From Zopfochytrium polystomum (taxonomy: Eukaryota > Chytridiomycota > Chytridiomycetes > Chytridiales > Chytridiaceae): DNA of 64,000 nucleotides. Of this stretch, positions 4,470 through 17,520 are shown piece after piece. Numbering within the stretch: position 1 is the first letter of the stretch; every line of letters begins with the position of its first letter. Below the pieces are notes generated by a model. The model worked only from the letters and a program-made list of their open reading frames with translations. It had not been told where the DNA came from and made no database searches. The stretch covers positions 1 to 64,000 of the forward strand of contig JAIVFJ010000029.1 in assembly GCA_025765615.1 (NCBI GenBank), given 5' to 3'. The translations under genes were made by a program, and so were the position numbers.

Positions 4470-7400
4470 ATGATGCTACGCTCTGCACATGCCGCGCCGT
4501 GGCGACGCCCTCAAGCCGGCCGTCTCCGCCGCCCTGCTGCCGCCGCCGGCTGCATCCACCGCCACCCACTGGTCGCAGCCGTCGTCCTCCTGCTAGCTCT
4601 CCTCCTTGTCACTTCGCCGGGCCGCATCATCGCCGTGCCCGCCGGCGGCCTCAATCCTGGCGACAAGGTCACAATCGAGGGAACCAAATACAAGGTAAGT
4701 ACCCAATGTTGTGGGGAAGCGTCGTGCTCTCGTTACCGCACGGCACACACACGCTCATCAACCACCCCACCAATAACCACTTCATTTCTCCGACCCTCCA
4801 CCTGCATCCGCTCGGTTGTCCCAACCCATACAGGTCAAGTCGGAACTGGGTGCGGGCAAGAACGGAAAGACCTTCAAGGCAACCAGCGGATTCCTTGGTG
4901 GAACCAAATCGGTCATCAAGGAGCAGAAACATGTCCCGTTCAATGCAAATGAGCTGGATGCCACTAAGAAGGGTGAGGCTGCCTGGGTGTGAGGTGGTGG
5001 TGGTCGTTCCAACACACATACACTAAAAACCCTTTCCACCAGCCGGCCAGCTTCGCGGTGTCAGCGAAGACAACAGGGTGATGGCACAGAAGCCCGTTGG
5101 CACGCACGCAGTTCGCGACTACCTCCGGGAAAACAAGGACAACAAAAAGTTCCTGAAAGCCGGCGAGGACCCGGCCGCCAACCCGAAAAAGGTCAAGATG
5201 AGCGACCACATCGCCCAGTCCGTCAAGAATCAGCAGACCAAAGTCGGCTACGCCCACAATGACCTCACCTTTGGCAACAACATGCGGGTCAACGCCAAAA
5301 AGAAGGACGCCCGAGGCGCGCCCAAGGTCGAGCTCATCGACTGGGGCGCCGCGTCAAAGCTCAAAGACGGGAAACTGTCGGACTCTGACCACAACTTTAT
5401 CGACAGGACTGCAAAGTCGCTGTGCAACGAGGTCGGCCTCGCGTTCAGGTCCACGGCGGGTTCGCGGCTGTTCCGCCGCGCCGGATGCTCGCGCGGCGGT
5501 GGGAAGACGCAGGCGGGCGGAAAGACTAAGGATGCGACGGCGGCCGGCGGTGGGAAGGGGGCTACTGCGACGGGTACCGGGAGGGGCACTACTGCTGCTG
5601 GTGGCGGCGCCGGCGGTGGGACTGCCGCCAAGGCGGGCGGGAAGACTCCTGGTGCGGCCGGCGGTGGGGCTGCCGCCAAGGCTGGGACAGGAGCCGGAGG
5701 CGGCAAGGCGGCCGCCAGCGGCAAGACACCTGCTGCGGCGACGGCACGCGGCGGCGCCGGATCCGGAGCTGGAGGCGGTGGCGGCAAGGGAGCAGGTGGT
5801 GGCAAGACAGCAACAAACGGTGCAGTCGGCGGCGGCGGGTCTGCCGCCAAGGCCGGAGCCGGAACCGGAGCCGGCAAGGCAGCCACAGGCGGCAAGACAC
5901 CTGTTTCGGCGACGGCACGCGGCGCCGGAGCGGGAGCTGGTGCCGGTGGCGGGAAGGGAGCAGGCGGTGACAAGACAGCTGCAAACGGTGGGGTCGGCGG
6001 CGGCGGAGGAAATGCCCGAGCAGCTCGCGGCGGTGGCGGCGCCGGGACTGGGAACGGAGCTGGAGCCGGCAAGGCGGCCGCCGGCGGCAAGACACCTGCT
6101 GCGGCGACGGCACGTGGTGGCGGCGGAGCTGGAGCCGGTGGCGGCAAGGGACCAGGCGGTGGCAAGACAGCTGCAAACGGTGGAGTCGGCGGCGGCGGAG
6201 GAAAAACCCAAGCAGCGCGCGGCGGTGGTGGCGCCGGGACTGGAACCGGAGCCCGCGGCGGCAAGGCTGCTGCAGCCGGGACGGCTCGCGGAGCTGCTAC
6301 CAAGGGCGCGGGTGGCGGCAAGACACAAGCGACAACGGCCGGACGAGGCGGCGGCGGCGGTAGTGGTGCGGCAGGTGGCGGCAAAGGAGCTGGCGGCGGC
6401 GGGACCGCGCGCGGCGGCAGTGCAGCAGGCGGTGCAGCCGCCAAGGCCAGCGGCGGCAGCGCAGGCAAGACAGCGGGCGGGAAGGGCGGCGCGGGTGCCG
6501 GCGGAAAAACACCAGCTACGACTGCGGGACGCGGTGGCGCCGGCGGTGCGGCTACGGCCAAGACTGGCGGAGGCGGCGGCGGGAAGACACGAACTGCTGG
6601 CAAAGGCGCCGGTGGAGCTGGTGGTGCCGCAACGGCTGGGGCAGGAGCAGGAGGAGGAAAGACCCAGACTGCGCGAGGCGGGGGCGGCGGCGGTGGCGGC
6701 GGTGCAGGCGGTGGCAAGGCGGGAGGCGGCGGTGGCAAGACTCCCACAGCTGCGGCGGGTCGCGGCGGAGGCGGGGCGGCCGGCGCCGGCAAAGGTGCTG
6801 GTGGCGACGGGGCTGCCGGCAAGGCTGCAGGAGGAGGCAGAAAGACGCAAACAGTTCGTGGCGGGGGCGGCGGTGTCGGTGGTGGTAAGGTCGGTGGCGG
6901 GGTGGGTAAGACGACTGCAGCGACTGGTGGACGTGGCGGCGGCGCAACTGGAGGTGGCAAAGGCGGCGGTACAGCTGGGGGCAAGGCTACGGGAGGCGGC
7001 GGAAAGACCCAAACAGCGCGGGGCGGCGGCGGTGGAGGCGGCAAGGCACCGGCTGCAGCGACAGCACGTGGTGGCGGCGGGGCAGCTGCCGGCAAGGCTG
7101 CGGGAGGCGGTGGAGGCGGAAAGGCAGGCGGCGGTGCCGGTGCTGGCAAGGCTGCTCGTGGCGGTGTGCCCGCGCGTGGCGGCGGTGGTGCTGCAGCCAA
7201 GGCTGGAGGCGGTGGTGGAGCTGCAAAGGGAGGTGCCGGCAGCAAGACTCCAGCCGCGGCGAACAAAGCTGGTGGAGGTGGAGCTGGCGGCAAGGCTGCA
7301 GGAGGAGACGGAAAGACACAAAGGGCGCGCGGCGGCGGAGGCGGTGGTGGAGCCGGAGGCGGTAAGGGCGGAGACGGAAGCAAGGCAGCTGGTGCGGGTG

Positions 7401-8348
7401 GAACTGGCGCAAAGGCCGGCGGTGCCACTAAGACTCAAACGGCGCGTGGCGGCGGTGGTGCCGGAGGCGTTAAGGGCGGAGGCGGAGGCAAGGCACCTGG
7501 TGCGACTGCCGCTAAGGCCGGCGGCGACGGCGGCGCTGGAAAGACTCCAACCGCGCGAGGTGGCGGTGCCGCCGGTGGTGGTGGTGGTGGTAAGGGAGGA
7601 GGAGGTGGCAAGGCAGCAGGTGTAACTGTCGCTAAGTCCGGCGGCAGCGGCGCCTTAAAGACTCAAACGGCACGTGGCGGCAGTGCTGGTGGAGCCGGAG
7701 TCGGTAAGGGCGGAGGCGGAGGAAAGGCAGCCGGTGCGGGTGGCGCTGGGACTGCCTCCAAGGCCGGCGGAGGTAAGGGAGGTGGTGGTGGAACTGCCGC
7801 CAAGGCCGGTGGAGGTGGAGGGAAGGTGCAAACGACGCGCGGCGGCGGTGGTGGTGGCGGTGGAGGTGGTGCCAAGGGAGGCGGCGGAAGCAAGGCTCCA
7901 GCTGCGGCGACGGGCGGCAAGGGTGCAGGCGGCGGCGGCGGTGCCGGTCGGGGTAACACTGGTGGAACGACGGCGGCCAAGGCGCCTACTGCACGCACGA
8001 GCGGTGGAGGCGGAGGAGGGGGGGTGAAGGTCCCTGCGAAAAGCGGGTGGCGGCGGCGGTGGTGCAGCGAAGGCGCCGAAGCAGACGACGACGGGGCGGA
8101 CGAGTGGTGGTGGTATTGGTGCGGGAGGTGGTGCGGCGAAGGCTTCAGCGCCGAAGCAGGCAACTACGCAGAAGCAGACGGCGGCGCCGAAGCAACAACA
8201 GGTGGCCGCCACTACGCAGAAGCAAGCAACTACGCAGAAACAAGCAACTACGCAGAAGCAGACAGCAACACCGAAGCAGCAGCAGACAGCAGCGAAGCCA
8301 GCAGCAGCAGCCAAGCCGGCCGGAGGAGGAGGAGGCAAGAAGAAGTGA
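4470..8348 (+). CDS. Membrane-anchored/secreted kinase-like protein with very long RGG/GAK-rich tail
   Basis: Exons are 4470-4694, 4834-4972 and 5043-8348,joined by GTAAGT...CAG and GTGAGG...CAG introns with consistent phase. The N-terminus has an Arg-rich stretch and then a strongly hydrophobic segment (residues about 35-52), a signal peptide or anchor. A kinase-like core follows: Gly loop ELGAGKNGKTFKA, a VAIK-like Lys (SVIKEQ), a catalytic-loop-like HNDLTFGNN (HxD plus Asn) and IDWGAAS in place of DFG. No clear activation-segment APE or C-lobe is seen. From about 5490 the protein becomes about 850 residues of Gly, Ala, Lys and Thr with dozens of ARGGGG units, then an ATTQKQ-repeat end. The frame breaks at an AAAA run (8039-8042): the natural continuation lies in the next frame and stops at 8346-8348, while the uncorrected frame runs to 8566. 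Catalysis is unproven. Confidence 0.65.
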
Positions 8349-8620
8349 GGAGTGGGATGAGGATTGGTACTTATTCTTTGGTAGTGGGTTTGGGGGCGGG
8401 TTGCTACGTTCTCCATTCTGTTACTTCCCAAGACTTGGATGGGATTGTTTCTTTCTTTCTGTGTTCCGTACATGTACTTTTGTGTTCACGTCTCTACTGC
8501 CAATACCATACTGTTTCTTCGACTTTCGACTGCCGCCACGGTGGGTGCCCACAGGCACGTGCTTAGCGTCAAGGTGGGAGCCTGCATAGCAACTATAGAA
8601 ATGTGTAAACATACTAGAGA
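8349..8620. other. Probable 3' flank of the kinase-like gene
   Basis: T-rich, non-coding-looking sequence. The out-of-frame extension of the upstream gene runs through it and shows no domain. Confidence 0.4.
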
Positions 8621-9103: not shown

Positions 9104-9272
9104 CACCGAACCATCTTATTTCATTCGACCGCGTGCATATTAACAACCGCGTTTTCACAAATTTTTTATTGGAAGGCTAAAGAAATAAGCATTGACGAGA
9201 AGAGTACAGAATGATTTGGATTGGTGAGCGGAAATGGTGAGCGGGAGAGAGCTAAACCAAAAGGAAAACGAT

Positions 9273-10426
9273 TCAATGCAGCACCAGCTTTAAACACGAG
9301 AGGGGAGAGAGATGGTGGAAAGCATTAGCGTTTTCCCTTTTTGCAGTCAAATGCGAAAAGTAATTGTCAGTCCGAAGTATCGCGAGGGGAATTGCGAGAC
9401 TCACTCGTCCGCCTTTTCCTCCAGCAGCGCCCTTTCCTCCTGAAGAGCCTGCTGCTGAGAGGCCGCGGACTAGGTTCAGGAAAAAAATAAGCATTTGCGT
9501 TGGAAAGGCGTTTTCCCGTTGCAAACAACTTACGAAGTCTGTTGTCGCCTTTTGGAGATATGTCTTATTCGTTTTGGTCAGAAGTATGCCCAACGAAAGT
9601 CGAACGACGCAACTTACTAGACAGGCTCAGGCTGCCAGCGACGGCTGAGGGACAGTTACAGATTACGGATCAGATTGGCATTAGGGTAATGACAGAGATT
9701 TCGCAAGGAATTCGAAAGAAAAGGGAGATTGCGGTTGGATGATTCGTTTCGAAGCCTCTGTGCGATGTTTCCGCGCTCTGGAAGGACGACAACTTACCAG
9801 TCTTGGGGCGGCCAGTGGCTGAGGGACAGATGTTGCATCAGATTTGCAAAAAAGTAACGGGTGGGCACGAGGAATCGGCCAGGGCAGACCATCGGCGAAG
9901 AATTCAAAACAAAAACTTACTTGGACCGATTCCCCTGGTACTGCCTGCGGAAATCACTGTTATAGTTTGGTAGGACAAGAGGTGGCTGGTCAGCATGCGC
10001 TCGTTGCATATGTAACGAAACTTGCCGTTGTTTCGAGAGGGGCCCCGGACTACCAAGGGGGACGATCAGGGACGGAATTGATCAGCATTATGAAGAGTTC
10101 TCTGCTTCAACTTTCCAAATGTAAGTGAACTCACGAAGTCTGTTATCGCCTTTTGGAAACAGATCTTATCACTTTTGGTCAGAAAACGTCCAGCGTCGGC
10201 GAAAGACGACAACTTACGAGCCGCACTGCCGACTAAAAGACAAGGACAGGGGGGGATTAGATTTGCAAGTAGGGAGTGGGATCGGCAAGGGCAGAACGCC
10301 CGCCAGAAGTTTGAATGAAAGATGGGACTGGCGAGGATTTTAGGCGGACGTACGTTGTGGAAGGGGGGCGGCTGACGCCAGAGCGGACAGGAGAAGAAGG
10401 ACAAGCGCACAGTAGCGGGCGATCAT
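9273..10426 (-). CDS. Secreted peptide gene built from in-frame micro-exons
   Basis: Exon 1 (10426-10354) encodes a textbook signal peptide: MIARYCALVLLLLSALASAA. Six micro-exons follow: 10232-10218 (15 nt), 10149-10135 (15), 9944-9921 (24), 9818-9798 (21), 9644-9618 (27) and 9548-9534 (15). Then come 9469-9405 (65 nt) and 9287-9273 (15 nt, stop). Every micro-exon is a multiple of three, sits in phase 1, ends at GTAAG or GTGAG and follows an AG. The joined frame stays open for 89 codons; reading through from 9469 to 9273 also stays open (128 codons). Two micro-exons encode the same DNRL core and have similar flanking introns, so they look duplicated. The C-terminal exon is Gly/Lys-rich. I recognise no family; function is unknown. 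Confidence 0.65.
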
Positions 10427-10532
10427 TTGTTCCTTTTTACTCTGCTGGTCGTCGAGGCACGCGTGAGTTGCGTGAGTTGCGTGCGTGGGTGTGTGATGCG
10501 GTTGGTTTGCTTGAAGGTTGGAAGGGGTTAGT

Positions 10533-10542: not shown

Positions 10543-11166
10543 TTGTGGGCTCAGCCTCGCAGGCTCGATTTGTGTCTTCGGTTTGTGGCTCCGCCCTTGC
10601 CCCGCTCCCGAAAACTGCGGCTCCGTCCGCAAACGTCAAAGTCAATCTGACCTCCGCCTTCAATAGCAGAGGCGTCGCGTCCTTCGCCCCGAACCTCTCC
10701 GTCGGCTCCGCCAACGGCCGCGGCGAGCGTTGTCTGGCCCCAGCCGCAACTCGGCCGTCTGCGTGTGCAAGATCGGACTTCCTAAAAAGGGGAAGACCAA
10801 AGTATTCCGTCTTGTAGCGCTGTGTTGGAATTTGGGCAGACAAAATTTTTGTCGCTTGCATTGTCTTTTCAACTAGACAAAAAGGTTCTAATACGCGGGG
10901 CACCGCCTCACCCACCCTTGCTTGTTGCTCAACCATTGATTAGTGGGGGATCGGCAAAAAAATAAAATAAAATAAAATTAAAGAAGAACACCGATCCGCA
11001 GGCTCGGTCAGTTCTCTAGTTCAATTTGGCAGTTTCCAGTAAACGTTACTTCCAAGTGGAGACAAAATCGAGGATACACTCAACTCCGCCGATTTTCCAT
11101 TGGCCAGTGCGAAAGAAACATGTCACAACAACAAATGACGCTTCGCGCACCCCCCAGCGCCATCCA
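10543..11166. other. No gene seen
   Basis: A 198-codon minus-strand ORF (10936-10340) runs through the signal-peptide exon and its upstream region, but its upstream part has no domain and overlaps the TATA candidate. I treat it as chance. An AAAATAAAATAAAATAAAATT stretch lies near 10958-10980. Confidence 0.4.
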
Positions 11167-11365
11167 TCACTTCCCCGTGCTGCTGCTCGCGCCGCCCGCT
11201 CCCCTGCCTCCATCGCCGCCGTCGGTCGTCAACGACGCGCTGCCGACCGTGCCAGACTTGATCCCCGACAGGCCGCTCGCGCCCTTTCCTTTGCCGCTGC
11301 AGTTGTACGCGACGATCTGCGTCACGTAGTGGCTGTCGGAGAGGAGGACCGTAGTAATCAGGTTC
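11167..11365 (-). pseudogene. C-terminal exon-like piece of an unidentified extracellular-type protein
   Basis: On the minus strand a frame opens after AAAAG or CCCAG near 11345-11365 and reads about 60 residues, including LITTVLLSDSHYVTQIVAYN, then a Gly/Ser-rich end and TGA at 11169-11167. Composition fits the last exon of a secreted protein, but I found no upstream exons and cannot name the family. Confidence 0.3.
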
Positions 11366-12122: not shown

Positions 12123-12150
12123 TGTTATGAATCACCCTCTGGAAACCTCT

Positions 12151-12250
12151 GGAACCTTCTAGAACATTCCTTCATGGAACCTTCTGGAACCTTCTGGAAC
12201 CTTCTAGAACATTCCTTCATGGAACCTTGTGGAACCTTCTGGAACCTTCT
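12151..12250 (+). promoter_or_regulatory. Heat-shock-element-like array in the LTR
   Basis: Reading in 5-bp modules, nGAAn and nTTCn alternate for four modules (12151-12170), eight modules (12176-12215) and four modules (12231-12250). This is the arrangement bound by trimeric heat shock factor (three or more alternating units). A further three-module site (TTC/GAA/TTC at 12315-12327) lies about 35 bp upstream of the TATA box. The 3' LTR carries the same array. Binding is inferred from the motif. Confidence 0.7.
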
Positions 12251-12394
12251 TTGCTTTCCTGACTTGTCTTGTTGTCATTGGTATCATTGGTATCATTGTA
12301 TTACTAATTGCTCTTTCTGGAACTTTCTTGGAGTCTTGACAAGGAACACTCTCAAAAGGTATAAAAGGGGGATGGGGGACCTGTCCCATCCCTC

Positions 12395-12405
12395 AAGTGA
12401 ATTAT
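12395..12405 (+). promoter_or_regulatory. Probable transcript 5' end and self-primer
   Basis: AAGTGAATTAT starts about 35 bp after the start of the TATA box and is perfectly complementary to 12478-12488. In Tf1-type elements the first bases of the RNA prime reverse transcription in this way. Confidence 0.6.
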
Positions 12406-12477
12406 TGTTTCCAATACAATCATCACTCCTCTCAGTTCCTTGTCTGCCTTGTCCTGTCCTGCCCTGTTCCTGACATC

Positions 12478-12488
12478 ATAATTCACTT
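12478..12488 (+). other. Primer-binding site (self-priming type)
   Basis: ATAATTCACTT, two bases after the LTR end, pairs over 11 nt with 12395-12405 of the same RNA. I saw no match to the usual initiator-Met tRNA 3' end. Confidence 0.65.
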
Positions 12489-12515
12489 CACCCTCTCCCA
12501 CTACTCTCTGCCATC

Positions 12516-13439
12516 ATGTCTGACCCAAACAACACCTTCCCTGATGCAACTGCCTTCCAAGCCTTGATGGACCAATTACAAGCCCTCTCAAGACAGACAC
12601 ACCAACTTCAAGAACAAGTCCTTCACCAGCAGCACCAGCTTCAACAACAACTTCACCAACAAGAACATCAAGCTCTTCCCCTGCCCCAAGCCAACCAAGC
12701 AAGAGAGCCCAAGGTTCCCAGCCCTGACAAGTTCACTGGGCTGGCCAAAGACCTTAGGAACTTCATGGCCACTGTGGAGAATGTCATCCTTCTCCAACCT
12801 TCAAGATTTCCCAGTGAGCAAGTCAAGGTTCTTTTCACAAGCACCCTCCTGTCTGGTCAAGCTCAATCATGGTACAGATCTCTCCCAAGCACACCCACCA
12901 CCCTGCAAGAGCTCTGGGAGGGGCTGGAAGCTACCTTTGGTGACCCCTACGCATCTTGGACAGCAAGATCCAAGCTCAAGCATATCAAGCAAGGAAAGCA
13001 ATCTTGTGTGGCCTACACCAACCAATTCAAGCAACTAGCCAGAGACTCTGGATACAATGATGCAGCTCTGATGGAGCTGTACCATGATGGTCTCCATGAG
13101 TCTATCCAAGACATGCTCTCCCAGTCTCTGCACATCCCTGAGACCTTGGAAGAGTACATTCTCCTTGCCATCAAGATTGACAACAGACTCTACTCCAAGA
13201 GGCTGAAGCAAAGACAAGTAGGAACTACATCAAGACCTACCCCAGTTCCTCAAGCTCTTACAGTTCCTGAACCCATGCAAGTGGATGCAGTTGAGACACT
13301 TCCTAAGGGTCCTCTGAGCCAAGAGGAGAAAACAAGGAGGGCCCAGCAGGGACTGTGTTTTTACTGTGGCTCCAAGGAGCATGCTGTCAAGGACTGCCCA
13401 AGGAAGAAGCACCCAAACTCCCAGGTCCAGGCTCACTGA
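12516..13439 (+). CDS. gag: Gag of the chromovirus
   Basis: 307 residues starting at the first ATG after the leader. A Gln/His-rich coiled-coil-like N-terminus (residues about 10-55) precedes a retrotransposon-gag domain with the WYRSLP and LWEGLEATFGD segments. A CCHC zinc knuckle CFYCGSKEHAVKDC lies near the C-terminus. The frame ends at TGA 13437-13439, overlapping pol. Gag forms the virus-like particle and the knuckle binds RNA. Confidence 0.92.
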   Translation: MSDPNNTFPDATAFQALMDQLQALSRQTHQLQEQVLHQQHQLQQQLHQQEHQALPLPQANQAREPKVPSPDKFTGLAKDLRNFMATVENVILLQPSRFPSEQVKVLFTSTLLSGQAQSWYRSLPSTPTTLQELWEGLEATFGDPYASWTARSKLKHIKQGKQSCVAYTNQFKQLARDSGYNDAALMELYHDGLHESIQDMLSQSLHIPETLEEYILLAIKIDNRLYSKRLKQRQVGTTSRPTPVPQALTVPEPMQVDAVETLPKGPLSQEEKTRRAQQGLCFYCGSKEHAVKDCPRKKHPNSQVQAH

Positions 13440-16400
13440 GGGGCAATTCCCTGGACCCTCCTCCAAGCTGCCCCTGTTTCATCACCACCACCAGCACCAC
13501 AAACACCTCAGATTCCAAGCCCCACCAACTCACCATGGATGTCAAGATTCAACTCTCACCCAAGTCAACCATCACAACCAAGGCCCTTATAGACTCTGGA
13601 TCATCCTGCAACATCATTGATGCCACCCTTGCCAAGTCTTGTGCCATTCCTACGATCAAGAAATCCACACCCCTCAAGGTCCACTTTGCCAATCATGCTC
13701 TGTTCAAGGAAATCAGCCATGAAACCAAGCTAAACCTCCACATCCAAGACTTTCCACCATCCATGGTCAATCTGGAAGTATTGGACCTTGGCTCACCCAC
13801 ATTCTCTGTCATCCTGGGATTACCATGGCTGCAAGCCCAGAACCCTGCCATTGATTGGGTCACTGGTCAAGTCCAACCTCCACCAATTGGAACAGTCACC
13901 CAAAACTCAAGTCAAGCCCCCAAGTCTCATGCTCTCAAGCCCTTGATTCAAGATTCACAGCCAGCCAAGACTCCAGTTCCACAGTTCACAGTTCACAGTC
14001 AAGATTCAAGTAGAGCTCATAGAGCTCACAGTCATGGCCATGACTCTTGTTCACAGAACCCACAGTCAAAGATTCAAGTACCACAGTTCACAGTCCACAT
14101 TCAAGATTCAAGTTCCACAGCTCACAGTCTTTGCCAAGAACAGAACTCTCAGTCAAAGATTCAAGAATCACAGTTCCCAGTCAAGAATTCAAGCCCCACT
14201 GCTGAGGAGCACGACAACCTGGACCCATCAGACCTTTTGCTGGCATCCAAGCTACCAAAAGAATATCTCCCTTATGCTGATGTGTTTTCCAAGACCAAGG
14301 CAGACCTGCTACCAGCTCAGAGGCCTTATGACTGTGAAATCCCACTCAAGGATGAAACTTGCAGCCCACCTTTCAAGCCACTGTACCACCTCTCTCCACC
14401 AGAAGCCAAGGCCCTCCAAGAATACATTGAAGAAATGCTGAACAAGGGATTCATCCAACCTTCCAAGTCACCAGCTGGAGCTCCCATCTTTTTTGTCAAG
14501 AAGAAGGATGGGGGACTGAGACCCTGTGTGGACTACAGAGATCTCAATGAGATGACAGTCAAGAACCGCTATCCACTGCCTCTCATCTCTGAATTACTGG
14601 ACAAACTGAGCCATGCAAGGATATTTTCCAAGATTGACCTCAGAGGTGCCTACAATTTGGTCAGAATTAAGCCCCAGGATCAATGGAAGACTGCCTTCAG
14701 ATGGAAATACGGTCACTTTGAGTACTTGGTTATGCCCTTTGGACTTACCAATGCTCCAGCTATTTTCCAAGGCATGATGAATGACATCTTCAGGGATATT
14801 CTGGACCTTTTTGTCATTGTCTACCTGGATGATATCCTGGTATTTTCATCTGACACTGCAAGCCATATGGGACATGTCAAGACTGTCTTGGAGAGACTCA
14901 GACAGCATCACCTCTATGCAAAGCTGGAGAAGTGTGAATTCCACAAGACCTCCATTGAGTTTTTGGGGTTCATTGTGTCTGACAAAGGGATCTCCATGGC
15001 ACCAGACAAGATCCAAACTATTCTTGAATGGAAGGCTCCAAATTCCATCAAGGATGTTCAAAGCTTCCTTGGATTTTGCAACTTCTACAGAACCTTCATT
15101 GCCAACTATTCTGCCATAGCCAAGCCTCTCACTGATCTCACCAAGAAGACCACCAAGTTTGAATGGACCCCAGCAGCAGAGCAAGCCTGGCTAGCTCTTA
15201 AGACAGCAACCACAAGTGCACCACTCCTTAAGCATGTGGATCCCTTGCTTCCCTTCACCTTGGAAACTGATGCCTCAGACTATGCCCTTGGCGCTGTTCT
15301 GTCCCAGCCAAGCTCTCAGGACCCCTCTGCTCCTCTGCATCCAGTGGCATATTACTCCAGGAAGCTGAACAGTGCTGAGTGTAACTACACAGTCCATGAC
15401 AAGGAGTTGCTTGCAATTGTGGAAGCATTCAAATTCTGGAGACACTACTTGGCTGGTTCTAAAGGCATCTCTGTCTATTCTGATCACAAGAACCTCACCT
15501 TCTTCAGGGCAAGGAGGTTGCTCAAGCAGAGGCATGCCAGGTGGGCTGAACTGCTCTCTGAGTATGACTTTAAGCTGTGCTATTCTCCTGGCCACCTTAA
15601 CACTGTGGCTGATGCCCTGTCAAGAAGAACAGACCTTGCACCTGAAGGGGGAGATGGTTTCACCCCACCATCCAAGACACACCTTTCATTGCTTCCTGAC
15701 AGTGTGTGGGCCCATGCTATTTCCAAGGACCCCAAGCCTCACAAGATTCAAATCAGCCAAGAAGAGGAAAAACTTGAGATACTCAAGACAAGGCATGATG
15801 CAGCAACAGCTGGACACCCAGGAGAGCACAAGACATATGAGCTTGTTTCCAGAGACTTCTACTGGCCAGGCATGAGGAAGTACATCAAGAGCTATGTCAG
15901 CAGCTGTGAAACCTGTCAAAGAAACAAATCCAGCAGACACAAGCCCTATGGACTTCTGGAGCCCCTCCCAATTGCCCTCAGCCCTTGGTCATCAATATCC
16001 ATGGACTTCATTGTGAAACTGCCCCCATCCCATGGATTTGACTCTATCCTTGTTGTCATCTGCAGAAGGACAAAGTTGGCCCATTTCATCCCCTGCACTG
16101 AGAATATAGATGCACAAGGAACAGCAGACCTGTTTTTGCAGCACATATTCAGGCTCCATGGGCTGCCTCAGTCAATCGTCAGTGACAGAGGACCACAGTT
16201 CAGATCTCAATTTTGGAAAGCACTCACAGCAGCCCTTGGAATCAAGTCTCAACTGTCAACTGCTTATCACCCTCAGACTGATGGACAAACAGAAAGAACA
16301 AACCAGACTCTGGAGCAGTATTTGAGGTGCTATGTCAGCTATCAACAGGATGATTGGCCCACCCTCCTTCCACTGGCAGAATTTGCTCTCAACAATTCTC

Positions 16401-17074
16401 TCCACTCAAGCACCCAGCTATCTCCTTTCTTTGCAACCTATGGCTTCAATCCAAGAGGAGATCTTCTGGGACAAGAGACCCTATCCAATGTCCAAGCTCC
16501 TGCTGCGGCTTCACACTTACATAAGCTCAAGATCATCAACTCCTTCCTGGACTCCACCCTGAAGCAAGCCCAAGAAGATGCCTCAAGATTTGCCAACACT
16601 CACAGAATGGACCATGACCTTGCTGTGGGTCAGCAAGTTTGGCTTCTGAGGAAGAACTTGCAGACCAAAAGACCAAGTCCCAAGCTAGACAACCTCAAGT
16701 TGGGACCTTTCAAGATCTTGGAGCAAATCAATCCAGTCACCTTCAAGCTGGATCTCCCTGCATCCATGAAGATCCACCCAGTTTTCCATGTCAGCCTTTT
16801 GGAGAAGTTTGTGGCCAATTCCATTCCAGGCAGAGTTGTTCCTCCTCCTCCTCCAGTTGAGGTAGAAGGTGAAGAGGAATTTGAGGTTGAACAAATCTTG
16901 GATGCCAAGTGGTTTGGAAGAACACTCAAGTTCCTTGTTAAGTGGAAAGGTTACTCAGATGCTGACAACACCTGGGAGCCTGAGTCAAACCTCACTCACT
17001 GCCAAGACCTTCTGCTCGAGTTCAAGACCAGGTACCCCACCAAGTTGCAGAAGAGGCCTAAAAGGGGGAGATGA
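13355..17074 (+). CDS. pol: Pol polyprotein with chromodomain
   Basis: The frame is -1 relative to gag and overlaps it by 85 nt; the true entry is probably the slippery site at 13412-13418, so residues before that are not expected in the product. In order, by residue of the 1239-aa frame: aspartic protease (ALIDSGSS, about 77-84); reverse transcriptase with VYLDDILVF; RNase H (ETDASDYALGAVL and SDHKNLTFF); integrase with an HHCC zinc domain (GHPGEHKTYEL...CETCQRNK) and DDE core (SMDFIV, IVSDRGPQF, HPQTDGQTER); then a C-terminal chromodomain (VEQILDAKWF...FLVKWKGYSDADNTWEP, about 1170-1230). The chromodomain usually directs integration to modified chromatin. No stop or frame break is seen, so the frame looks functional. 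Confidence 0.95.
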   Translation: MFLLWLQGACCQGLPKEEAPKLPGPGSLRGNSLDPPPSCPCFITTTSTTNTSDSKPHQLTMDVKIQLSPKSTITTKALIDSGSSCNIIDATLAKSCAIPTIKKSTPLKVHFANHALFKEISHETKLNLHIQDFPPSMVNLEVLDLGSPTFSVILGLPWLQAQNPAIDWVTGQVQPPPIGTVTQNSSQAPKSHALKPLIQDSQPAKTPVPQFTVHSQDSSRAHRAHSHGHDSCSQNPQSKIQVPQFTVHIQDSSSTAHSLCQEQNSQSKIQESQFPVKNSSPTAEEHDNLDPSDLLLASKLPKEYLPYADVFSKTKADLLPAQRPYDCEIPLKDETCSPPFKPLYHLSPPEAKALQEYIEEMLNKGFIQPSKSPAGAPIFFVKKKDGGLRPCVDYRDLNEMTVKNRYPLPLISELLDKLSHARIFSKIDLRGAYNLVRIKPQDQWKTAFRWKYGHFEYLVMPFGLTNAPAIFQGMMNDIFRDILDLFVIVYLDDILVFSSDTASHMGHVKTVLERLRQHHLYAKLEKCEFHKTSIEFLGFIVSDKGISMAPDKIQTILEWKAPNSIKDVQSFLGFCNFYRTFIANYSAIAKPLTDLTKKTTKFEWTPAAEQAWLALKTATTSAPLLKHVDPLLPFTLETDASDYALGAVLSQPSSQDPSAPLHPVAYYSRKLNSAECNYTVHDKELLAIVEAFKFWRHYLAGSKGISVYSDHKNLTFFRARRLLKQRHARWAELLSEYDFKLCYSPGHLNTVADALSRRTDLAPEGGDGFTPPSKTHLSLLPDSVWAHAISKDPKPHKIQISQEEEKLEILKTRHDAATAGHPGEHKTYELVSRDFYWPGMRKYIKSYVSSCETCQRNKSSRHKPYGLLEPLPIALSPWSSISMDFIVKLPPSHGFDSILVVICRRTKLAHFIPCTENIDAQGTADLFLQHIFRLHGLPQSIVSDRGPQFRSQFWKALTAALGIKSQLSTAYHPQTDGQTERTNQTLEQYLRCYVSYQQDDWPTLLPLAEFALNNSLHSSTQLSPFFATYGFNPRGDLLGQETLSNVQAPAAASHLHKLKIINSFLDSTLKQAQEDASRFANTHRMDHDLAVGQQVWLLRKNLQTKRPSPKLDNLKLGPFKILEQINPVTFKLDLPASMKIHPVFHVSLLEKFVANSIPGRVVPPPPPVEVEGEEEFEVEQILDAKWFGRTLKFLVKWKGYSDADNTWEPESNLTHCQDLLLEFKTRYPTKLQKRPKRGR
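13412..13475 (+). promoter_or_regulatory. Candidate -1 programmed frameshift signal between gag and pol
   Basis: The heptamer C CCA AAC (13412-13418) is in the gag frame in the X XXY YYZ arrangement. After a 5-nt spacer, GGTCCAGG (13424-13431) can pair with CCTGGACC (13450-13457). Loop bases AGGGGCA (13439-13445) can pair with TGCCCCT (13469-13475). Together these make an H-type pseudoknot that encloses the gag stop codon. Confidence 0.7.
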
Positions 17075-17427
17075 TGTTATGAATCACCCTCTGGAAACCT
17101 CTGGAACCTTCTAGAACATTCCTTCATGGAACCTTCTGGAACCTTCTGGAACCTTCTAGAACATTCCTTCATGGAACCTTGTGGAACCTTCTGGAACCTT
17201 CTTTGCTTTCCTGACTTGTCTTGTTGTCATTGGTATCATTGGTATCATTGTATTACTAATTGCTCTTTCTGGAACTTTCTTGGAGTCTTGACAAGGAACA
17301 CTCTCAAAAGGTATAAAAGGGGGATGGGGGACCTGTCCCATCCCTCAAGTGAATTATTGTTTCCAATACAATCATCACTCCTCTCAGTTCCTTGTCTGCC
17401 TTGTCCTGTCCTGCCCTGTTCCTGACA
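17075..17427 (+). repeat. 3' LTR of the chromovirus
   Basis: 353 bp, identical by eye to the 5' LTR, including its TATA box and GAA/TTC array. Confidence 0.95.
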
Positions 17428-17520
17428 TGCAGAATAAAGAAAGAGAAGAGGGAAACAGGGGGTTTCTATCACAGAAACCTAATCTCAAATGCAAAAGGAG
17501 CGGTTAATAGCGATGGGACG
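17428..17520 (+). repeat. Dispersed repeat R1, copy 2, right part
   Basis: Starts with the 3' target duplication TGCAG and resumes the R1 sequence interrupted at 12122. Confidence 0.85.

Follow-up and report, generated by a model that had tools for sequence, protein, structure and literature searches.

A young gene family that appears to be restricted to the chytrid Zopfochytrium polystomum (Chytridiales) probably encodes a secreted orphan protein of about 114 amino acids, and its micro-exons, which would have arisen by internal duplication, may offer alternative splice choices; the probability of this reading was put at about 0.55. The member studied lies at positions 9273-10426 on the minus strand of the window, the 64 000-nucleotide stretch of contig C29 that was analysed, and consists of a signal-peptide exon followed by tiny exons. 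Exons and candidate exons are designated e1 to e9 and are listed with the other copies of the gene in Table 1.

The genome comprises 80.2 Mb in 761 contigs. At least four near-complete paralogs were found, with the layout of the gene repeated in each; they are 89-91% identical to the window copy, and pairwise identity among the five copies (window and four paralogs) is 89-95%. Searches of the genome with exon 1 and the 3' end gave no further full members of the family, and the family counts are lower bounds. The two short matches in Table 1 seem to be degenerate remnants of e9 and the 3' region, one frame-changing base apart from each other.

Table 1. Exons, candidate exons and related copies of the micro-exon gene (window coordinates unless a contig is given).
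Feature	Position	Strand	Remarks
Exon 1 (e1), 73 nt	10354..10426	-	Start codon and predicted signal peptide MIARYCALVLLLLSALASA-APLPQ; donor GTACGT; deposited model agrees
Micro-exon e2, 15 nt	10218..10232	-	Phase 1-1; position and length as in deposited model
Candidate micro-exon e3, 30 nt	10135..10164	-	Acceptor AAG; skipped by deposited model
e3 as originally predicted	10135-10149	-	Last 15 nt of e3
129-nt exon	9921..10049	-	Deposited model; 0 indels in five copies
e5 as originally predicted	9921-9944	-	Last 24 nt of 129-nt exon; internal CAG acceptor
Micro-exon e6, 21 nt	9798..9818	-	Phase 1-1; position and length as in deposited model
Micro-exon e7, 27 nt in window	9618..9644	-	Indels in multiples of three; donor as in deposited model
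Deposited 8-nt exon	9618-9625	-	Last 8 nt of e7; window acceptor GAG, not CAG
Micro-exon e8, 30 nt	9534..9563	-	Deposited model; originally predicted as last 15 nt, 9534-9548
Last exon e9, 69 nt	9401..9469	-	TGA 9401-9403 in deposited frame (SAASQQQALQEERALLEEKADE)
Poly(A) signal, AATAAA-like	9165..9170	-	By eye
Near-complete paralog, C50 first copy	C50:30182-31333		91% identical to window over the interval
Near-complete paralog, C50 second copy	C50:45889-47040		
Near-complete paralog, C493 first copy	C493:5110-6237		
Near-complete paralog, C493 second copy	C493:11774-12930		
Partial copy	C6		Starts exactly at 3' boundary of 129-nt exon (9921)
Exon-1 remnant	C686		
Two short matches	near C50:48.2k and C493:14.1k		

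A search of about 5.8 billion proteins with translated fragments of the region gave a sole match, DFJ73DRAFT_760687 (P0001), a hypothetical protein of Z. polystomum; the fungal source assumed in the original prediction is thereby borne out. Two such searches, which covered candidates of about 72-346 amino acids, gave no other relatives at E values up to 10 and no deposited protein for the window copy; within this length range a deposited protein was found for only one of the five copies. Within the same limits the gene appears to be an orphan restricted to Z. polystomum. A search for deposited models of this species by way of a neighbouring LRR gene gave four proteins at E values up to 1e-10 among the 7994 scored candidates that shared most words with the query, none of them labelled as Z. 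polystomum.

The first C50 copy yields P0001 (114 amino acids) without a single mismatch when seven exons of 73, 15, 129, 21, 8, 30 and 69 nt are joined, all six introns being GT-AG. Four of the five internal exons are of 30 nt or less and together contribute 74 (15+21+8+30) of the 345 nt of coding sequence. The internal exons are entered in phases 1, 1, 1, 1 and 0. The 8-nt exon is not symmetric, and because its length is not a multiple of three the last exon is read in a frame different from that originally predicted: as SAASQQQARQEERALLEEKADG followed by a TGA stop rather than as RGLSAAG-SGGKG. The TGA of the deposited frame overlaps the seventh GTAAG/GTGAG donor of the interval, and in the other frame e9 stays open on to a TGA at 9273-9275. 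The presence of an 8-nt exon hints that the deposited model may have been built on reads. Micro-exons of the family are already annotated in the deposited protein, though as another set than the predicted one.

The original prediction had joined the signal-peptide exon to six intervals delimited by AG and GTAAG/GTGAG, of 15, 15, 24, 21, 27 and 15 nt, all multiples of three, in phase 1 and open. These intervals are present as described. It had further stated that all six donors of this type were thereby accounted for; the interval holds seven, the seventh at 9404, and each of the seven has an in-frame AG partner at a distance that is a multiple of three. Comparison with the deposited model confirmed e1, e2 (15 nt) and e6 (21 nt), while the other four micro-exons differ. 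e3 is skipped, e5 is just the 3' end of the 129-nt exon and, for e7 and e8, the deposited model keeps the donors but uses other acceptors, giving 8 and 30 nt. Read to its stop, the predicted plan has 117 of 387 nt in micro-exons. What survives is a small, presumably secreted product with several real micro-exons, as supported by the deposited model of the paralog and its indel-free exons; the specific set of six exons differs from that of the deposited model.

The prediction had also judged a chance origin of the chain improbable. When the 60 nt preceding each of the six donors were dinucleotide-shuffled, all six exons could be chained at lengths of 6-30 nt in 5 of 5000 trials and at 15-27 nt in none of 5000. 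Full chains are rare in shuffles, but the odds are overstated and the true odds are less extreme, since e3 and e8 are copies of each other and e2 and e7 lie in a duplicated block. The predicted chain is open through e8 in all five copies, the window copy included, because the stop-bearing part of the 129-nt exon is treated as intron. An unspliced reading through e2 and e3 of the window copy (RKLSSFADAG...) was ruled out, as 1-nt indels between the copies break its frame.

The block e2-e3-e4 (10184-10128) resembles the block e7-e8-e9 (9583-9527), with 84% identity over 57 nt and 78% over a longer match. Weaker internal likenesses link the e2 donor to that of e6 (20 nt, E = 0.022) and the intron after e1 to the one after e5 (43 nt, 67%, E = 0.065). 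In the five copies e3 and its duplicate e8 are identical at 25-29 of 30 bases without gaps, whereas the flanking introns are 74-84% identical before and 73-85% after these exons, with gaps in both. That e3 is better kept than its introns suggests that it is at times used or that it was recently converted. Tandem duplication of an internal exon-intron block would have enlarged the gene and left several very small exons, most of them multiples of three and of phase 1-1.

All five copies have a TAG or CAG acceptor and a GTAAGT donor at e2, and a CAG acceptor and a GTAAGT donor at e6; such conserved splice sites carry little weight because the copies are recent. e7 measures 27 nt in the window and 21, 21, 12 and 21 nt in the paralogs. 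The window copy differs from the C50 paralog whose product is P0001, and whose DNA is 91% identical over the interval, by a 6-nt insertion at e7 that changed the CAG acceptor of the 8-nt exon to GAG.

Between the start and stop codons 20 indel events were counted among the five copies, and the 345 columns that the deposited plan assigns to exons contain none of them. When the exon mask of this plan was rotated, zero indels were obtained at 8 of 1036 positions (mean 6.8). The seven exons of the original prediction contained 2 of 17 indel events and 257 of 900 rotations gave as few; the indels show no clear avoidance of these exons. The only indels of the gene in multiples of three (2 of 20, of 9 and 6 nt) both lie in e7 as predicted.

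Substitutions gave the opposite picture to indels in the deposited plan: variable columns were similarly frequent in exons (52 of 345) and introns (87 of 639) of the five copies. In the deposited frame pN/pS was 0.85 for exon 1, 0.38 for e2, 1.49 for the 129-nt exon, 1.22 for e8 and 0.65 for e9, while e6 has no synonymous change; the predicted frame gave 0.62 for e8 and 0.54 for e9. For exon 1 and the 129-nt exon the lowest value of all came from a frame that cannot be coding (0.17 and 0.44), and this comparison of frames, which rests on few changes, picks none of them. The substitutions reveal neither strong purifying selection nor any constraint from coding. Under the deposited plan three of the five copies are open to the final stop; the second C50 and second C493 copies carry a TAG stop inside the 129-nt exon and are both shortened. 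All 216 tested combinations of exons with lengths in multiples of three are open through e8 in three copies, and 144 of 216 in the other two.

Exon 1 has a maximum hydropathy over 11 residues of 2.94-2.97 (four distinct peptides in the five copies) and an A-x-A motif, and by eye it encodes a canonical signal peptide. An AlphaFold2 model of P0001 from the single sequence had a mean pLDDT of 49.6, mostly below 50. Its sole long confident part is a C-terminal helix (residues 78-113, pLDDT about 70-80) whose codons run from the end of e6 through the 8-nt exon and e8 into e9. P0001 carries no recorded Pfam domain.

Actin-family matches in the genome served as a rough control. Of the 65 listed matches, 47 were assigned manually to 17 genes, giving 30 junctions, and 18 were left out. 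The shortest matched stretch covered 30 profile positions (47 stretches, 17 genes). The control covers matched stretches only, with unmatched first exons outside it, and gaps of at least three profile positions, in which small exons could hide, occurred at 5 of the 30 junctions (4, 4, 11, 17 and 112). The actin genes are matched by ordinary stretches, so micro-exons are not the rule in the actin-family genes of this genome.

The neighbourhood of the gene was also inspected. A Ty3-like LTR retrotransposon (12123-17428) lies about 1.7 kb upstream, with identical 354-bp repeats (12123-12476 and 17075-17428) around an ORF encoding protease, RT, RNase H, integrase and a chromodomain. A long Gly/Lys-rich ORF on the plus strand (5078-8566), convergent with the micro-exon gene, has DNA matches on C493, C50, C6 and C686 and no Pfam match. 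On contig C686, exon 1 and its 5' leader (10359-10468) run straight into the sequence equivalent of 8642, which places the signal-peptide exon next to other DNA within a 98-amino-acid open frame. The block 10600-10758, which lies directly upstream of the gene, occurs inverted and displaced in three other copies (C50:31.6k, C50:47.4k and C493:13.3k), and alignments with the four near-complete paralogs are interrupted at about 10595-10600. An open stretch on the minus strand at 11167-11360, identified by eye and ending in CSGKGKGASGLSGIKSGTVGSASLTTDGGDGGRGAGGASSSTGK, may belong to the end of a further Gly-rich gene; the DNA surrounding it is repeated on C493.

e1, e2 (15 nt), e6 (21 nt) and e8 are very probably used. 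The anatomy of the gene suggests competing splice options: a 15- or 30-nt form of e3 or e8, skipping of e3, a 129- or 24-nt acceptor, and an e7 of 27 or 8 nt, that is, a multiple of three or not. Use of the short e7 acceptor together with e8 would give a helical C-terminus (ARL-IQLQKAITDF-SAASQQQ...), and use of the long e7 a Gly-rich one (RGLSAAG-SGGKG). A family with such splice choices is supported by the exact rebuilding of P0001, the indel-free deposited exons, the indels in multiples of three in e7, the likeness of e3 and e8, the block duplication, the open exon combinations and the predicted C-terminal helix. The DNA layout, the copies, the deposited model and the indel pattern are observations; secretion, the splicing that actually takes place, any variation of the protein and an extracellular function are inferred from them. 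Weighing against it are the equal variability of exons and introns, the unclear pN/pS, the recency of the copies, the single deposited protein and the shortening of two of the five copies.

The deposited model may instead be right for all functional copies, in which case the gene would be a constitutive seven-exon gene, its tiny exons by-products of duplication without isoforms, and e3, e5 and the long e7 would not be exons. The rebuilding of P0001 and the absence of all 20 indels from the deposited exons also fit this explanation, as do two changes between CGCGTCTA and CGCGCTTA that are synonymous in the deposited frame and the helix predicted at the deposited C-terminus (the only frame modelled). 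It was considered possible but unlikely, as the window copy has GAG in place of the CAG acceptor for the 8-nt exon, a stop interrupts the 129-nt exon of two copies, the likeness of e3 to e8 outlasts that of the introns, and the sole indels in multiples of three fall in the long e7. The avoidance of the deposited exons by indels (8 of 1036 rotations) argues against a decaying, repeat-borne family in which a block is copied along with its neighbours and the exons drift without coding constraint. One copy moreover has a deposited protein and three of the five are open under the deposited plan, and decay was judged very improbable, even though exon and intron substitution rates are alike, two copies contain stops under that plan, and partial copies (C6 and C686) and degenerate 3' relics exist.

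It is also highly doubtful that varied skipping among six symmetric micro-exons generates a pool of secreted variants in the manner of the schistosome micro-exon genes (MEGs). The predicted exons are multiples of three, in phase 1 and open in all five copies, their chain is rare in shuffles, and MEG reports likewise describe a signal peptide, recent duplication and weak purifying selection; however, four of the six differ from the deposited model, micro-exons form a minority of the coding sequence, and the 2 of 17 indels inside the predicted exons are matched by 257 of 900 rotations. It seems rather improbable that the fungus independently evolved a micro-exon family that diversifies secreted proteins, with duplicated phase-1 exons in multiples of three being skipped or lengthened and the 8-nt acceptor switching the last exon between a helical and a Gly-rich frame. 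If the tiny exons of the preferred splice-choice family are spliced variably, micro-exon variation of secreted proteins would have arisen outside animals, in a fungus, and the five young copies would show its birth via duplication of an internal block. Even if they are not, the gene is a clean annotated case of an 8-nt exon with copies that disagree on exon choice, and the family is one on which splice-aware annotation of chytrid genomes can usefully be tested. We know of no parasitism in Z. polystomum.

No paper on a fungal MEG-like gene was found in the literature searched, as judged by titles and the openings of abstracts, and passages of two papers that mention Zopfochytrium (PMC7482067, PMC9926174) contain nothing on the family or on reads of the species. 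Schistosome MEGs are described in two reports as having a signal peptide, a coding region made up mainly of tiny symmetric exons, and alternative splicing (PMC4350168, PMC4015677), and in one of these as restricted to platyhelminths (PMC4350168). The chytrid gene shares with them a predicted signal peptide, a small product and tiny symmetric exons. Recent species-specific duplicates with high nonsynonymous change are likewise common to both (deposited-frame pN/pS of 0.85 for exon 1 and 1.49 for the 129-nt exon), a ratio that in the chytrid family could equally reflect relaxed constraint. The chytrid gene differs in its organism, which is no flatworm, and in its tiny exons, which supply 74 of the 345 coding nt, a minority, and include one of 8 nt. 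The likeness 'in plan' to MEGs that had been proposed extends to the signal peptide, the tiny symmetric exons and the recent duplicates, and stops at the share of coding sequence that is micro-exonic. As to membership of the MEG families, only P0001 was matched among the approximately 5.8 billion proteins at E values up to 10 (candidates of about 72-346 amino acids), a result of these searches rather than of direct alignment to MEGs.

The products of the aphid bicycle genes are secreted. These genes, putative gall effectors, are described as fast-evolving and containing microexons, with about 17 exons on average and nearly all internal exons in phase 2 (PMC9168663). The two protein searches found no sequence relation to them. 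The chytrid gene has seven exons, the internal ones being entered in phase 1 and then 0 in contrast to the nearly uniform phase 2 of bicycle genes; what it shares with them is fast evolution and the possession of several unusually small internal exons.
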